From the NCBI RefSeq assembly GCF_000827125.1, contig NZ_CP010311.1, positions 1 to 64,000 on the forward strand: a stretch of 64,000 nucleotides of DNA, read 5' to 3'. The translations under genes were made by a program, and so were the position numbers. This stretch comes from Geoalkalibacter subterraneus (lineage in GTDB: Bacteria > Desulfobacterota > Desulfuromonadia > Desulfuromonadales > Geoalkalibacteraceae). Under the pieces are notes generated by a model. The model did not search any database and was not told the DNA's origin. It worked only from the letters and a program-made list of their open reading frames with translations. Positions 16,445 to 46,025 of the stretch are shown here, piece after piece. Each line of letters begins with the position of its first letter. Within the stretch, counting starts at the first letter, position 1.

Positions 16445-16549
16445 TGGGGTCGCAACTCCCATGTCAAGGGACACTTTTCGCCGTCCCTGGCCGTTTGACT
16501 GGCGCCCTCCATGGCGCCAGACACCCTTGTCATGGGAGCTGCGACCCCA
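16445..16549. repeat. Palindromic 103-bp repeat, copy A
   Basis: About 25-nt arms begin GGGGTCGCAACTCCCATG and end CATGGGAGCTGCGACCCC, with two mismatches between arms. The middle has a second hairpin, CTGGCGCC-ctccat-GGCGCCAG. It lies between the divergent PBP1A gene and the diheme lipoprotein gene. It matches copies at 34490, 45923 and, reversed and shortened, 50997. Confidence 0.9.
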
Positions 16550-27815: not shown

Positions 27816-27870
27816 GAAACGAACAGATGAAGCCGCCCCTTCGGGGCATATGACGAAAACTGAACAGTCC

Positions 27871-28021
27871 ACCGGTGCCCGCAAGGGCTTGATAGGGAAG
27901 AGGGGTGCAAATCCCCCGCGGACCCGCCGCTGTGAGCGAGGACGAAGGGCCGGATACCACTGATCGAACGGATCGGGAAGGCGGCCTGGAGGATGAATCG
28001 CGAGCCAGAAGACCTGCCGGT
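27871..28021 (+). ncRNA. Cobalamin (adenosylcobalamin) riboswitch aptamer
   Basis: This leader shows the B12-box signatures in order: GGTGCCCGCAAGGGC, TTGATAGGGAAG, GGTGCAAATCCCCCGC, the GCCGCTGTGAGCGAGGAC segment, CACTGATCG, GGGAAGG and GAGCCAGAAGACCTGCC. P1 can form between ACCGG (27871-27875) and CCGGT (28017-28021). A GCCCC-TTC-GGGGC hairpin lies just upstream. Binding of coenzyme B12 is expected to turn off btuB, which encodes the cobalamin receptor. A terminator at 28088 is the likely expression platform. Confidence 0.93.
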
Positions 28022-28087
28022 CGGACACCCCCACGACAAGCCTCCCCGGGAATGGGAGGGTGGACAAAGCGGCCCTTCGAAAACGCG

Positions 28088-34489: not shown

Positions 34490-34592
34490 GGGGGCGCAAC
34501 TCCCATGACAAGGGGCACTTTTCGCCATCCCTGGCCGTTTGATTGGCGCCCTCCCTGGCGCCAAACACCCTTGTCATGGGAGTTGCGCCCCC
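34490..34592. repeat. Palindromic 103-bp repeat, copy B
   Basis: The arms begin GGGGGCGCAACTCCCATG and are perfectly complementary over 25 nt. The inner hairpin is TTGGCGCC-ctccct-GGCGCCAA. It lies between the ArsR-rhodanese gene and trxB, ahead of the trxB start. Confidence 0.92.
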
Positions 34593-39520: not shown

Positions 39521-40333
39521 CTATTTTGTGTGATCGTCGTGGCAGGTCAGGCAGTCATTGAGCCCCTTTTCGTTGTACATGGCATCCGATCCGTGGCAGC
39601 TCAGGCAGCTTTCCGTTTCTTCGCTGCGTTTGGCGCCGATAAAAGCATACTTGCCTACCAGGTGCTCATTGAGCATCTCAACAGTTCGGTAGGCCGTATC
39701 ACCCGCCACTTTGGCGCAGCGATCTTTTCTCTGCTTCTCGGTATAGGACGCTCCGGCCGCCATCATCCAGGTCGAGACCGACGCATGGCACAGCGGGGAA
39801 TTGGGGATTTTTTGTATCTGATCCTTGTTTGCTGCAAGGTCGTCATAACGCTTGGAGGGGAAATTTTCCTGGCTGTACCAGTGAATCAGGTCCGCCACCA
39901 GTTTTGAATGGGTTTTCTTGTCGTCGTAGGCCACCAGGTTGATAATGGCGGCACAGGAGCCGATGGAGCCGCACAGGGTGCCTTCTCCGCCGTAGCCGCC
40001 GGCGGCATGGTGAAACATGTCATCAGGAAGCAGGATATAAGGGAAGCCGATCTCTTCTTTCATGAGGCTGAGGACCCCCAGCCAGGCGCCGGTGCCTCAG
40101 CCGCCTTTTTCATGGTAATAGTTGAACGCTCTTCTGCCGGCTTCCATCGGGTCGAGTTTCTTCCACGGCCAGGGCAGCGTCGGCGCCGTAACGGGCGACT
40201 GCTTGCTTTTGCCGATGTCGGCCATGGCAACGCTTCCCGCCAGGGCGCTTCCCGCCACGGCCATGCCGGTGGCGGCGATAAAGCGGCGACGGTTTACAGG
40301 ACTGCCGTCTTTTTCTGCAAGATGTTTGAGCAT
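39521..40333 (-). CDS. Tat-exported split-Soret-type cytochrome c with selenocysteine
   Basis: From ATG 40333 (GGAG 5-9 nt upstream) the frame runs 270 aa except for one TGA at 40099-40097 (residue 79). Read as selenocysteine it gives YYHEKGG-U-GTGAWLGVL, where C_GCAxxG_C_C-family and split-Soret cytochromes have cysteine. The N-terminus has a twin-arginine signal (NRRRFIAATGMAVAGSALAG). Later features are GTLCGSIGSCAAI and two CXXCH heme motifs (CLSCH at 243-247, CLTCH at 261-265). A SECIS-like hairpin follows the TGA. It diverges from the yeeE operon. Its likely role is periplasmic electron transfer; the substrate is unknown. Confidence 0.8.
40066..40099 (-). promoter_or_regulatory. Bacterial SECIS-like element, split-Soret cytochrome gene
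   Basis: From the UGA: 13-nt spacer, 7-bp stem GGCUGGG/CUCAGCC (one G-U pair), loop GGUC. The geometry is identical to the element at 33546, though the stem sequences differ. Confidence 0.75.
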
Positions 40334-40785
40334 GGTGTCTCCTTTTTTCTGCAAGGGGCAAATCCCGGAGAATCTGCCTCAGTTGAAAACAGGCCGCTGC
40401 ATCCTGTAATGAAATGTCTCTTTGCTGTCGGACATCGCACAGGCCATGCCATGCGCTCTCCAGGGCGAAGTTCCTTCCGCTTTTTAGTTTTTATTGATTT
40501 TTAGTTTTTGTTTTAAAAACAATAGCTTATGGAGGATATCAAAAATAAAATAACGGAGACGCATGAAATTTCTGAAAGGTGATGACATGCTCGAAATGTA
40601 TTTGGCATTTCTTTCATTGTGAACGAATATTTCAAATTGAAAGAAATGGCGCGGATAGGAAACTGAAAAATTAGAGCACAGGGAAGAATTTTTTAATATT
40701 TATGTGATAAAATCTTCTTAAGTTCATGGTGGCTGAACGCGATTCGACGTCTCAGCCTATTTTCTGATCGGCAGAGAGGCGCTCA
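40334..40785. promoter_or_regulatory. Divergent intergenic region between Sec-cytochrome and yeeE
   Basis: This 452-bp region should hold both promoters. It contains an 11-bp inverted repeat (CATTTCTTTCA at 40606-40616 with TGAAAGAAATG at 40638-40648), a candidate binding site for the downstream NtrC-type regulator. A 19-codon frame at 40563-40622 (MKFLKGDDMLEMYLAFLSL) has GGAG upstream and could be a leader peptide, but this is weak. I found no convincing -24/-12 sigma-54 promoter. AT content is higher than in the flanks. Confidence 0.4.
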
Positions 40786-41892
40786 ATGCTGCTATCGGGC
40801 TTGTGGTCCTGGTTTTTCTTTTATTTGGGCCTGGGGATGATTATTGGGACGGCGCTGTACCGAAGCGACTTCTGCATGGCCGGTATCCTCCGGGATGTTT
40901 TTTTGTTCAAGGATTATGAGCGTCTCCGGCATCTTTTCCTGGCTGTCATCCTGACTCTGTTGTTTTTTACCCTGCTGCGCACCTTTGATCTGGCACCTGC
41001 GAACAATTTTTCTGCCGGGCATAAAAGCTTTCTGCTTGGGAGCGTGGGCGGGGTGGTGTTCGGATTCGGCATGGTGTTGGCCGGCGGCTGTGTTTTCGGC
41101 ACTCTCTACAAGATGGCAGCCGGCAATCTGACTTATTTGCTGGCCTTTGTCGGCCTTGTCGCAGGCAGTCTCCTGTATGCGGAGCTACACCCCTGGTTGC
41201 GTTCCATTCCTGCGAACGAACCCTGGCACGGAGAGCTGAATCTGCTTGAACAGTGGCCGGGTTTTGTCGGTGCCTCCAGCTGGATTTTGGTCGGAATCTT
41301 GCTGGTCCTGTTTATCTGGTGGCGCCGGCAGGGAAAATGGACGGTTGCTGCCGCGCCGGAAGGTTACATGCAGCCCTGGCTGACCGCCGTGCTTCTTGCC
41401 GCGGCCAACCTGGCGGCATACGCGGTGAGCGGCCTGCCGGTGAGCATTTCCACCATGTATGCGAAACTGGGGGCATGGCTGGAGAGCCTGGTTGCGCCCG
41501 TCCATGTGGCAACCCTGGATTATTTCAGCCGACCGTCTTTTGTGGTCGACATCGGTTCCGCAACATTTCCGGTTGGCGGCGGGCCGCAACTCGATTTTTA
41601 CGCCTTCACCGAAGGCGGCCTGATGCTGGGTGTGCTGGCGGGCGCTTTTCTCAACGCCCTGTGGCTCAAAGAGTTTCGCCTTTCCGGCTGGCCGCCTCCC
41701 CGGCAGGCGGCCTCTGCCCTGGTCGGCGGCGTGTTCATGGCACTGGGGGCCCGCATGGGTAACGGCTGCAATATCAAGCACCTGCTGGGCGGCGTGCCGC
41801 TGCTGTCGCTGCATTCCATGCTCTTCGTCTGCGGCATGCTGTTGGGGGCCTGGCTTGGCGCCCAGGTGCTGCCGCGCATCATTTTGAGGTGA
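40786..41892 (+). CDS. YeeE/YedE-family sulfur/selenium compound transporter
   Basis: The 368-aa membrane protein has about nine to ten helices and duplicated YeeE motifs: VLAGGCVFGTLYKMAAGN in the first half and GARMGNGCNIKHLLGG in the second, each with a conserved cysteine. Family members import thiosulfate (YeeE/TsuA), and YedE homologues are linked to selenium metabolism. The adjacent TusA-like gene fits either. AGAGAGG lies upstream of the ATG. First gene of a four-gene operon. Confidence 0.85.
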   Translation: MLLSGLWSWFFFYLGLGMIIGTALYRSDFCMAGILRDVFLFKDYERLRHLFLAVILTLLFFTLLRTFDLAPANNFSAGHKSFLLGSVGGVVFGFGMVLAGGCVFGTLYKMAAGNLTYLLAFVGLVAGSLLYAELHPWLRSIPANEPWHGELNLLEQWPGFVGASSWILVGILLVLFIWWRRQGKWTVAAAPEGYMQPWLTAVLLAAANLAAYAVSGLPVSISTMYAKLGAWLESLVAPVHVATLDYFSRPSFVVDIGSATFPVGGGPQLDFYAFTEGGLMLGVLAGAFLNALWLKEFRLSGWPPPRQAASALVGGVFMALGARMGNGCNIKHLLGGVPLLSLHSMLFVCGMLLGAWLGAQVLPRIILR

Positions 41893-41897
41893 GACCT

Positions 41898-42167
41898 ATG
41901 GAATCCCGTGAAATTGTCGAAATCGTTGATCTGAATATTCTCGGCCAGGTCTGCCCGGCCTGCCTGCTGGTGGCCCTCGATGCGCTCAACAACCATGAGG
42001 AAAGCCTGCGCTGCGGCACAAAGCGGCTGGTGGTGCGCACCGATCACCGCGACAGCACCCGCACCATCCCCAAGGCGGCACGCAAGATGGGCTATGACGT
42101 GGAGGTCAAAAAAGTTGATAGCTGCTACGAAATCTCGATCGGGAGAAAGTATGAACCAACCCGATGA
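41898..42167 (+). CDS. TusA/SirA-like sulfur carrier with CPAC motif
   Basis: The 89-aa protein has the TusA fold motif near its N-terminus, but the usual CPxP is CPAC (ILGQVCPACLLVALDAL), giving a second cysteine. TusA-like proteins carry persulfide sulfur; YedF relatives are linked to selenium. It is 5 nt after yeeE and overlaps the histidine kinase gene by 17 nt. GAGGTGAG precedes ATG 41898. Confidence 0.82.
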   Translation: MESREIVEIVDLNILGQVCPACLLVALDALNNHEESLRCGTKRLVVRTDHRDSTRTIPKAARKMGYDVEVKKVDSCYEISIGRKYEPTR

Positions 42168-43857
42168 GGAAAAAGATGCGCTGCGCAGGCGCTGCGCCGA
42201 ACTGGAAGCTGAAAACCGGGCCTACGCCCGCTACATCCGCGACAAGACCAATCATCTGCTCGGGGTGATCGGCACCAAGGAGCTTGAGGAGGATGAGCTT
42301 GACGACCAGGCCCTGATCAAGCTGGACCCTATCGGTATTGTGGCCCGGTCTTTCCTGCAGATTCTGACCAATCTCAACCAGACCATTGACGAACTGCGTG
42401 AGGCGAAAAACGAGCTGCAGGCCATCTTCGATGCGACCGGAGTCGGCATCTCCATTGTCGACCGCAATTTCGTCGTTGAGCGCTGCAATGAAAAACAGCG
42501 TGAAATGCTGGTGGATTCCAGTGTTGAAGAGGTCGTCGGGCGTCACTGTTTTGAGGTTTACTGCGACCGCAACGCACCGACTTCGGAATGTCCCGCCCTT
42601 GATTCTTTTGAGACGGGTAAAGCCGCCCTGGTGCGCGAGGTTCAGAAAAAGGGGCGCTGGTTCCAGTTGGTGACGACCCCCTTTTCCCGCGCGGAGGATG
42701 GGAGCATCAACCGGGTGATCGAAGTGTCCATGGATATCACCGAAAAGAAAAAGGTCGAGGATGCTGAAAAAGAACTGCGGGAATTCTGCCAGACTGAAAG
42801 ACGAAAGCTTGCGACCGTCATCGAAAGCCTTTCGGAGGGGCTGCTGGTGGTCGATGAGCAAGGGCGGATTGTGTCCTGCAACCTCGCTGCGGATGAAATA
42901 ACCGAGCAGCGTATCGGGGAAAATTGCAACCGTCCGCTGGACGATGCGATCGCTGAATTCGCGCCTCTGCTGCGCAGTGATGCCGGCAACGTCCAGGGCG
43001 TGGAGGTCATGACCCGCACCCGCCAGGGTTACGATCTGCTGCTTTCCGTCAATGTGGGGTGCCTGTCGGACAACGAGGGGCGTCCTCTCGGCCATGTTCT
43101 GACCTTCCGCGACATTACCGAGGAGAAAAAACGTGCCGAACTCTATCACCGCGCCGAAAAACTGGCGGCCATCGGGCAGCTTTCCGCAGGGGTGGCGCAC
43201 GAACTCAACACCCCTCTGGGCAGCGTGCTGGGGTATGCGCGTCTGCTGCTCAAAGACAAAGCACTGCCTGACAATCTTAAAAACTGGGCTGAGATCATCG
43301 CGGAGCAGGCAAAAAAGAGCAGTACCATTATTCAGGGGTTGCTGCGCTTCGCCCGCCAGTCCAACCCGGCCCACCGCTGCCTCGAGCACTGCTTCCTCAA
43401 TGATGTGATTCAGCGAACGCTGCCGGTGTTGTCCACCGAGTTGGACAAGCGGAAAATTGAACTGATCAGCGAGCTTAACCCCGTGGCTCCGGTTGTGGCG
43501 GACCCGCAGGAGCTGGAGCAGCTTGTTCTCAACCTGACCATGAATGCCATGCAGGCCATAGGCGAGAAGGGATGCGTGCGCATTGAGACGGCCCAGGCTG
43601 GTTCGAAGGTGGTCATGAAAATTTCGGATGACGGGCCAGGTGTTCCAGAGGAGATCCGGTTCCGCATCTTCGATCCTTTCTTTACCACAAAAGCTCCGGG
43701 CGAGGGGACCGGCCTCGGCCTGTCCCTGTGTTCCGGCATTGTCAGCGACATGGGAGGCGCCATCGATATCGCCGGGGGTGAAGACCGGGGCGCGACCTTT
43801 ATCGTCTCCCTGCCGGCGAGCGACGCTGTAGAGGGCTCAGGTGACCTGCATGAATGA
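42151..43857 (+). CDS. PAS-domain sensor histidine kinase
   Basis: The 568-aa cytoplasmic kinase has an N-terminal coiled-coil region, two PAS domains (from about residue 91, IFDATGVGISIVDRNFV, and about 220-330), a HisKA domain with phospho-acceptor H350 in SAGVAHELNTPLGSVLG, and a HATPase domain (NLTMNAMQAIGEKG, DDGPGVPEEI, GTGLGLSLCSGIV). It has no transmembrane segment, so it senses an internal signal. It overlaps the response-regulator gene by 8 nt; the two are a cognate pair. Confidence 0.93.
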   Translation: MNQPDEEKDALRRRCAELEAENRAYARYIRDKTNHLLGVIGTKELEEDELDDQALIKLDPIGIVARSFLQILTNLNQTIDELREAKNELQAIFDATGVGISIVDRNFVVERCNEKQREMLVDSSVEEVVGRHCFEVYCDRNAPTSECPALDSFETGKAALVREVQKKGRWFQLVTTPFSRAEDGSINRVIEVSMDITEKKKVEDAEKELREFCQTERRKLATVIESLSEGLLVVDEQGRIVSCNLAADEITEQRIGENCNRPLDDAIAEFAPLLRSDAGNVQGVEVMTRTRQGYDLLLSVNVGCLSDNEGRPLGHVLTFRDITEEKKRAELYHRAEKLAAIGQLSAGVAHELNTPLGSVLGYARLLLKDKALPDNLKNWAEIIAEQAKKSSTIIQGLLRFARQSNPAHRCLEHCFLNDVIQRTLPVLSTELDKRKIELISELNPVAPVVADPQELEQLVLNLTMNAMQAIGEKGCVRIETAQAGSKVVMKISDDGPGVPEEIRFRIFDPFFTTKAPGEGTGLGLSLCSGIVSDMGGAIDIAGGEDRGATFIVSLPASDAVEGSGDLHE

Positions 43858-45193
43858 TTCAAGCTCCATCCTGATTGTTGAAGATGATTCCACCATGCGC
43901 CACCTTATCCGCGACACTCTCGCGGCGGAGGGGATCGCGGCGCAGATGAGCGAAGACAGCCGTGCCGCCGCCAGCCTCATTGAGCAGAGCCGGGTCGATA
44001 TCGTCCTCACCGACCTGAAGATGCCCCACCTGGACGGTATGGAAATCCTGGCCAGGGCACGGCATCACAATCCTGATTGTGTGGTGATCGTGATCACCGG
44101 CTACGGCACCATTGAGTCGGCGGTGGAGGCGATTCGCAAGGGGGCCTACGACTATGTGCAGAAACCCTTTGAGCCGGATGCCCTGGTGCTGACCGTTCAA
44201 CGGGCGATGGAACATGCCCGACTGGTGCGGGAGAACAAAAGGCTGCGGGAGCAGGCCGGCGAGCGCCGGGGGGGAGATCTCATCGGCAGCAGCCGCAAGA
44301 TGGTGGAACTGAAGAATTTCATCGCCAGGATCGCACCCTTCGACACCACTGTTCTGATTCAGGGTGAGACGGGCACCGGCAAAGAGCTGGTAGCCAAGTT
44401 CATCCATCAGTGGAGTTCCAGGGTCGGGCGGCGTTTCCTGCCGGTCAACTGCGGCGCGCTGACCGAAACGCTGCTGGAGTCGGAGCTTTTCGGCCATGTG
44501 CGCGGCGCCTTCACCGGGGCCGACAGCGACAAGAAGGGGCTGTTCGAAACGGTGGATAAGGGGACGATCTTTCTCGATGAAATCAACTCCATCTCCCCTG
44601 CCTTTCAGGTCAAACTGCTGCGGGTTCTGCAGGAAGGGACCTATCTCAGGGTGGGAGGGCGCGATCCGCGCACGGTGGATGTGCGGGTGATCGCCGCCGC
44701 CAACGCCGATCTGGAAAAGGAAGTGGAAGCAGGCCTATTCCGCAGCGATCTCTATTATCGGCTCAATGTGGTGCCGGTGATGATCCCGCCGCTGCGCGAG
44801 CGGCGTGAAGATATTGCCCTGCTGGCGCATCATTTTCTGTCGGTCTACGGCGCCAAATACGGCAAGACGATATCGAGCATCAGCGGCGGTGCGCTCGATC
44901 TGCTGCGGGCCTATTCCTGGCCGGGCAACGTGCGGGAGTTGGAGAACGTGATGGAGCGCGCCATCATCGTCGCCGACGAGAATGAGCTGCAGCCGGGGCA
45001 TCTGCCCCGCCTGTCAGCTTCGGGGCAGGAACCGATGGAGTCGGACGACGTGCTGATGTCGCTGGAGGAGATGGAAAAACGGTTGATCGTCAAAGGGCTG
45101 CGCCACACCGGCGGGCATAAAGGTAGAACGGCGGAGATTCTCGGCATCAGCCCGGTTTCGCTGTGGCGCAAAATAAAAAAATACGATCTTTAA
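43850..45193 (+). CDS. NtrC-family sigma-54-dependent response regulator
   Basis: The 447-aa protein has a receiver domain with phosphorylatable D55 (LTDLKMPHLDG), a sigma-54 AAA+ domain (Walker A GETGTGKE near residue 172, GAFTGA loop ESELFGHVRGAFTGA, Walker B GTIFLDEINSI) and a C-terminal Fis-type helix-turn-helix (GRTAEILGISPVSLWRKI). It probably activates a sigma-54 promoter in this locus or elsewhere. Start at ATG 43850; a GTG at 43841 is possible. Confidence 0.94.
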   Translation: MNDSSSILIVEDDSTMRHLIRDTLAAEGIAAQMSEDSRAAASLIEQSRVDIVLTDLKMPHLDGMEILARARHHNPDCVVIVITGYGTIESAVEAIRKGAYDYVQKPFEPDALVLTVQRAMEHARLVRENKRLREQAGERRGGDLIGSSRKMVELKNFIARIAPFDTTVLIQGETGTGKELVAKFIHQWSSRVGRRFLPVNCGALTETLLESELFGHVRGAFTGADSDKKGLFETVDKGTIFLDEINSISPAFQVKLLRVLQEGTYLRVGGRDPRTVDVRVIAAANADLEKEVEAGLFRSDLYYRLNVVPVMIPPLRERREDIALLAHHFLSVYGAKYGKTISSISGGALDLLRAYSWPGNVRELENVMERAIIVADENELQPGHLPRLSASGQEPMESDDVLMSLEEMEKRLIVKGLRHTGGHKGRTAEILGISPVSLWRKIKKYDL

Positions 45194-45922: not shown

Positions 45923-46025
45923 GGGGTCGTAACACCCATGACAAGGGCCACTTTTCGCCATCCCTGGCCGTTTGATTGGCGCCCTCCCTGGCGCCAAACA
46001 CCCTTGTCATGGGTGTTACGACCCC
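45923..46025. repeat. Palindromic 103-bp repeat, copy C
   Basis: Arms begin GGGGTCGTAACACCCATG and are perfectly complementary over 25 nt. They differ from copy B at three positions, with matching changes on the other arm. It lies between the gloA and methyltransferase genes, both on the minus strand. Confidence 0.92.

Follow-up and report, generated by a model that had tools for sequence, protein, structure and literature searches.

A very probable selenoprotein variant of split-Soret cytochrome c in Geoalkalibacter subterraneus

A reading frame for a putative exported cytochrome of Geoalkalibacter subterraneus is interrupted by an in-frame TGA, which raises the question of whether this codon ends the protein or is read through, and, if it is read through, as which residue. 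The window that we analysed, meaning the whole stretch of 64,000 nucleotides (contig NZ_CP010311.1, positions 1 to 64,000), carries the frame on its minus strand: it opens with ATG at 40333-40331, meets the TGA at codon 79 (40099-40097, context KGG-U-GTGAW), and runs on to 39521 (Table 1). An earlier note on this DNA had stated that gene callers would split the gene into frames at 40097-40354 and 39521-40063, and the list of open reading frames under the standard code contains exactly these two, of 85 and 180 amino acids, respectively. A mechanical scan of the window for TGA-interrupted frames returned 13 candidates and missed the cytochrome gene itself, and thus must be regarded as insensitive.

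Table 1. Coordinates of the putative selenocysteine-containing cytochrome gene and of its parts, numbered along the window.
Feature	Position	Strand	Basis
Candidate selenocysteine split-Soret-type cytochrome gene	39521-40333	-	270 residues with TGA as Sec; homology crosses the TGA
TGA codon 79, predicted to be read as Sec	40097-40099	-	17 sequences with TGA (window included), 77 with Cys
SECIS-like hairpin, 7-bp stem, loop GGUC at 40073-40076	40066-40083	-	Conservation; synonymous change suppressed in codons 85-89
Start and twin-arginine part of N-terminal Tat signal	40271-40333	-	Sequence; RR nearly invariant in alignment A1
Cys121, invariant, Cys of the GCAxxG element	39971-39973	-	Alignments; position counted from ATG 40333
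Cys127, extra Cys typical of Sec forms	39953-39955	-	13 of 15 Sec rows vs. 1 of 73 Cys rows
Cys182, invariant	39788-39790	-	Alignments of 34 and 88 rows
Cys206, invariant	39716-39718	-	Alignments of 34 and 88 rows
First heme c site, CLSCH, residues 243-247	39593-39607	-	Sequence
Second heme c site, CLTCH, residues 261-265	39539-39553	-	Sequence

The protein obtained by reading through the TGA has the composition that the earlier note had ascribed to it: a twin-arginine signal (NRRRFIAATG), a C_GCAxxG_C_C motif that matches Pfam domain PF09719 with 35.6 bits (above the gathering score of 27), and the two CXXCH sites looked for in a split-Soret cytochrome. In a phmmer search, it matched the split-Soret cytochrome c of Desulfovibrio desulfuricans (PDB 1h21) with an E-value of 1.1e-29. 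An alignment with split-Soret cytochromes had been proposed in the note as a check of its claim that the TGA replaces a conserved cysteine, and this alignment indeed crosses the TGA and pairs it with a Cys. The AF2 model of the window protein (pLDDT 83.6, pTM 0.78) found 1h21_A as its sole Foldseek match at E < 0.001 (E 1.4e-10), and the comparison of the two with VIA gave a Z of 26.0 and an rmsd of 3.4 over 217 residues, the next-best Z being 3.0. Thus, by homology and by fold, the window protein belongs to the broad split-Soret cytochrome c family, at an identity to 1h21 of about 30% (28% with VIA, 33% with Foldseek). It shares with the D. desulfuricans protein the fold over these 217 residues, the two CXXCH motifs and four non-heme Cys positions, and differs from it in an apparent Sec in place of the first of these Cys, and in the additional Cys127. 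It is a homologue of the NF047622 equivalog (SptSoretCytCDesul; 5.9e-42, 144 bits), and the equivalog label itself was withheld, since the score is below the curated cut-off of 400 bits. Although the structure of split-Soret cytochrome has been solved, we know of no established function of these proteins. The split-Soret genes of Desulfovibrio alaskensis had no fitness effect under the conditions tried, according to the part of PMC4215793 available to us, and D. desulfuricans ssc appears with a value of -1.74 in a list of nitric oxide effects within PMC5701242, likewise available in part.

To place codon 79 among its homologues, we used a phylum survey, with a match in 49 of 395 genomes, and class-wide searches overlapping it, with matches in 110 of 257, 27 of 277, 10 of 192 and 4 of 85 genomes (the last at a stricter E of 1e-40); a scan of contigs for relatives added one locus, L047. 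The 96 matching loci gave 88 protein-distinct rows, eight having been dropped as protein-identical to others. In the earlier note, homologues with neither Cys nor Sec at this site were named as grounds for giving up the selenocysteine reading. In column 79 of the 88 rows, we found TGA in 15, including the window, Cys in 73, and nothing else. The six rows added later have TGA (L141, L144) or Cys (L142, L143, L145 and the partial L146), which brings the total to 17 TGA, i.e., the window and 16 relatives, versus 77 Cys; these counts cover the loci fetched, and further genome matches listed without loci lie outside the alignment. Among three matches with inner stops, TGA occupied the site in G476 (L144), and Cys in G620 (L145) and G601 (L146), as it did in L049 (G208) and L074 (G409), which had also been flagged for inner stops. 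Two genomes, G145 and G611, have four family matches each, one per genome with TGA, so that a Sec form stands beside Cys paralogues. The window gene thus has an in-frame UGA where its homologues have Cys, as selenoprotein genes do. This UGA corresponds to the first Cys of the C_GCAxxG_C_C motif, and position 79 (Cys/Sec) is, together with 121, 182 and 206, an invariant non-heme position both in a 34-row alignment (A1) and in the 88 rows. A single CXXCH characterizes a one-heme branch of the family, which comprises 32 of the 73 Cys forms (L022, L026, L031 and relatives).

The comparison of sequences also indicates that the protein is conserved as one unit on either side of UGA 79, in agreement with the claim of the earlier note that the TGA lies inside one gene. 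Nine pairs were tried for the part 3' of the TGA, and dN was lower than dS in every pair with estimable dS, dS being saturated in some; in the pair L018/L047, for example, dN was 0.084 versus a dS of 1.04. Purifying selection was found on both sides of the TGA and was stronger on the downstream side. Together with the alignment to 1h21 through the TGA and the TGA in the 16 relatives, this goes well past what chance would produce.

The genome of G. subterraneus encodes the proteins and the tRNA for selenocysteine insertion. We found a tRNA-Sec with anticodon tca (76.3 bits), i.e., selC, as well as SelB (403.6 bits), SelA (611.2 bits) and SelD (370.8 bits), with selA, selB and selD adjoining at G000:C1:2752781-2757165. 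The presence of tRNA-Sec does not discriminate between the two forms of the cytochrome, since a match of at least 56 bits was found in 14 of the 15 Sec-form genomes searched (not in G479) and in 13 of the 15 Cys-form genomes searched. The SelD gene of G. subterraneus (L139, G000:C1:2756239-2757165) has one in-frame TGA of its own, and SelD is probably itself a selenoprotein, the context of its TGA, as read in one of several frames, probably being SGUAAK.

Downstream of the cytochrome TGA, at a distance of 13 nt, lies the onset of a candidate SECIS-type hairpin. In the 13 Sec members of the main clade (see below), columns 17-34, with the T of TGA as 1, fold into a stem of 7 bp and a loop of 4 nt, and 98.9% of the hairpin cells of these sequences pair, versus 37-71% when the hairpin is slid by 1-3 columns. 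Codons 85-89 are the stretch of five informative codons with the lowest mean synonymous codon difference in the gene, 0.03 versus 0.54 over 203 columns, and thus the site of its strongest silent-site constraint. Twelve of the 13 sequences have the loop GGUC, and L116 has AGUC; L141 has GCUC, and L048 and L119 have hairpins of other sequence close to the same place. We take the loop to resemble known SECIS loops. No compensatory change was seen among the 13 main-clade Sec sequences, and for the 60 nt that surround the hairpin, the folding energy gave an unremarkable z of -1.07, with 29 of 200 shuffles as good. The support for the hairpin is, for these reasons, conservation at the nucleotide level and not covariation.

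Taken together, these comparisons make it highly probable that the window gene encodes, as the earlier note had proposed, a selenoprotein belonging to the split-Soret cytochrome c family, in which UGA 79 would be decoded as Sec. That the TGA instead specifies Trp or Cys, inserted without selenium by near-cognate reading or in an altered code, would agree with the presence of Cys in all the non-TGA homologues read; however, the genome contains selA, selB, selD and tRNA-Sec, a specific hairpin downstream is constrained within the TGA-bearing clade, and the one Cys row of that clade (L099) retains the stem without the GGUC loop, all of which make such decoding highly improbable. Least probable of all, and close to negligible, is that the TGA is a genuine stop or results from a sequencing error or from mutation in a pseudogene, leaving two short proteins or none: the standard code does yield two frames, but the TGA is at the identical site in 16 relatives, is flanked by purifying selection that is stronger beyond it, and is followed by a constrained hairpin, so that homologues, machinery, RNA constraint and selection combined leave little room for it.

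To follow the distribution of Sec and Cys, we built a tree from the 88 rows after leaving out columns 79 and 127. Thirteen Sec rows and one Cys row, L099, formed a single clade with a support of 100/99, which covers ten family-level groups and in which the window clusters with L097 and L098 (support 99/89). The two other Sec rows behaved differently: L119 was placed elsewhere on the best tree, without firm support, and L048 was attached to the Sec clade by a long branch flagged by the program, with a weak support of 82/60, its placement being unsure. A single origin of Sec is not favoured: the best tree needs three changes between Sec and Cys, two of which are forced by starred branches. A second gain of Sec, in L119, is likely; it is not forced, because one of the forced changes may be a loss in L099. 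The latter (G753:C38:115139-115912) has TGC at the site, and has kept Cys127 and the hairpin stem without the GGUC loop, as would be expected of a Sec-to-Cys reversion with a relic SECIS, which is the likely explanation of this row.

What Sec would do in such a protein is suggested in part by the export signal. Attachment of c-type hemes follows export, and the Tat signal therefore speaks for another cofactor, for instance an iron-sulfur centre, that is loaded in the cytoplasm. The D. desulfuricans split-Soret protein was reportedly found by Abreu et al. in 2003 to have, by EPR, a non-heme iron centre, possibly a [2Fe-2S] cluster. The earlier note had considered Sec in an exported multi-redox cytochrome unusual, on the ground that the protein must be folded with its cofactors before Tat export. 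This argument needs correcting, as R15 and R16 are nearly invariant in the 34 rows of alignment A1, which makes the signal an ordinary one in the family; in the parts of the respective papers available to us, archaeal split-Soret proteins are predicted to have twin-arginine signals (PMC4429474), and SO0939 is among the refined putative Tat substrates of Shewanella (PMC3623810).

We consider the chances about even that Sec79, as a ligand, binds the non-heme iron centre reported for the D. desulfuricans protein, together with Cys121, Cys182 and Cys206. If so, the centre would be loaded in the cytoplasm, the folded protein would then be exported by Tat, and both hemes would be attached after export. 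The product would be a dimeric periplasmic electron carrier, and the selenolate ligand could tune the potential of the centre or its tolerance to oxygen or sulfide.

Alternatively, Sec79 may be not a permanent iron ligand but a catalytic selenol, forming a selenenylsulfide with Cys127 in a periplasmic reductase fed by the hemes. The distribution of Cys127 points in this direction, as this residue is present in 14 of the 17 Sec forms, namely in 13 of the 15 Sec rows of the 88-row alignment, among them the distant L048, and in L141, versus 1 of the 73 Cys forms; many known selenoproteins also resemble thiol oxidoreductases, as stated in the accessible part of PMC13188914. However, Cys127 is lacking in the Sec forms L073 and L119, its counterpart in L144 is shifted one place further on, and the Cys row L099 retains it. 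Moreover, the association follows mostly one clade, and an independent-pairs test fell short of significance, with too few events. Therefore, the association of Sec with Cys127 is suggestive, and we give the catalytic selenol a chance well short of even, though far from negligible. A strict linkage of the two residues was rejected as a rule, being broken by L073, L119, L144 and L099. Returning to Sec79 as an iron ligand, we give a probability somewhat below even to a fuller picture in which Sec ligates the iron centre of a Tat-exported c-type cytochrome and Cys127 is a second, Sec-linked partner, the two hemes and the selenolate-bound iron-sulfur centre together making up a periplasmic redox catalyst.

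The genes around the cytochrome were compared in 15 other loci, among themselves and with nine neighbours in the window. This set offered no firm lead: besides the cytochrome, the most widespread cluster occurred in 4 of the 15 loci, and it matched the histidine kinase and the regulator of the window, which belong to general two-component families. Two loci close on the tree, L051 and L131 (G132 and G947), had four neighbour clusters in common, whose members in L051 (an alpha-amylase-domain protein, an unnamed protein, DUF3300 and DUF3313) offer no functional lead. Genes resembling MlaD/PqiB and PqiC adjoin the cytochrome gene in the window and lie about 5 kb from it in L051, at 30-32% identity between the two loci, and a weak MlaF match was seen near L130; these Mla/Pqi-like matches are too sparse and too weak to conclude from.

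On the plus strand at 40786-45193 of the window, the genes divergent from that of the cytochrome encode a YedE/TsuA-like membrane protein, a small TusA/YedF-like protein, an AtoS-like histidine kinase and an AtoC-like sigma-54 regulator. The YedE/TsuA and TusA/YedF families take their names from selenium or thiosulfate metabolism, but the window proteins score below the curated cut-offs. An element of about 103 nt occurs at 34490-34592, 45923-46025 and 16446-16548 of the window, the first two copies being 93% identical. It was found in at least 40 places in the genome (40 of 68 candidates scored), has inverted ends of about 25 nt, and appears to be a small mobile or REP-type element with dispersed copies. 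The window also carries a cobalamin riboswitch at 27856-28035 on the plus strand (106.3 bits).

As for known selenoproteins, the 2026 inventory counts 119 prokaryotic families and subfamilies, and among these, in the portion available to us, are two C-GCAxxG-C-C forms (forms 1 and 2) and two c-type cytochromes (PMC13188914); the C-GCAxxG-C-C family is also in the available part of a 2022 table (PMC9312934). Forms 1 and 2 share domain PF09719 with the window protein, and one of them could itself be a split-Soret protein. In our own set, L057 (G145:C3:497011-497397) encodes a C_GCAxxG_C_C protein and has its TGA (HUSQAI) where the motif has its first Cys, the position that corresponds to the window TGA; unlike the window protein, it is short and has no CXXCH in its translation. 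As L057 has TGA there, Sec at this site of the domain is by itself no novelty. Nor would the window protein be alone in having Sec in a c-type cytochrome, as the ExtKL multiheme cytochrome and an octaheme cytochrome of the tetrathionate reductase family are given as such in the same portion of PMC13188914; they belong, however, to families other than split-Soret (NF040886 and TIGR04315, respectively). The word "Soret" is absent from the main text of PMC13188914, to the extent that this text was available, and a full-text literature search, with most subscription papers outside its scope, did not find "split-Soret cytochrome" together with "selenocysteine". Thus, the new part is the two-heme Sec form with a Tat signal and an extra Cys, a very probable selenoprotein of which we found no description in the literature searched.

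Such selenoproteins are probably undercounted, because standard gene calling splits their genes, as it does in the window. The case would place Sec at a position that is probably a metal ligand, in a protein folded before its export. The Sec forms point to one residue that matters in split-Soret cytochromes, and the natural Sec/Cys pairs within one clade, 13 rows with Sec and L099 with Cys, would allow the role of the non-heme centre to be tested.
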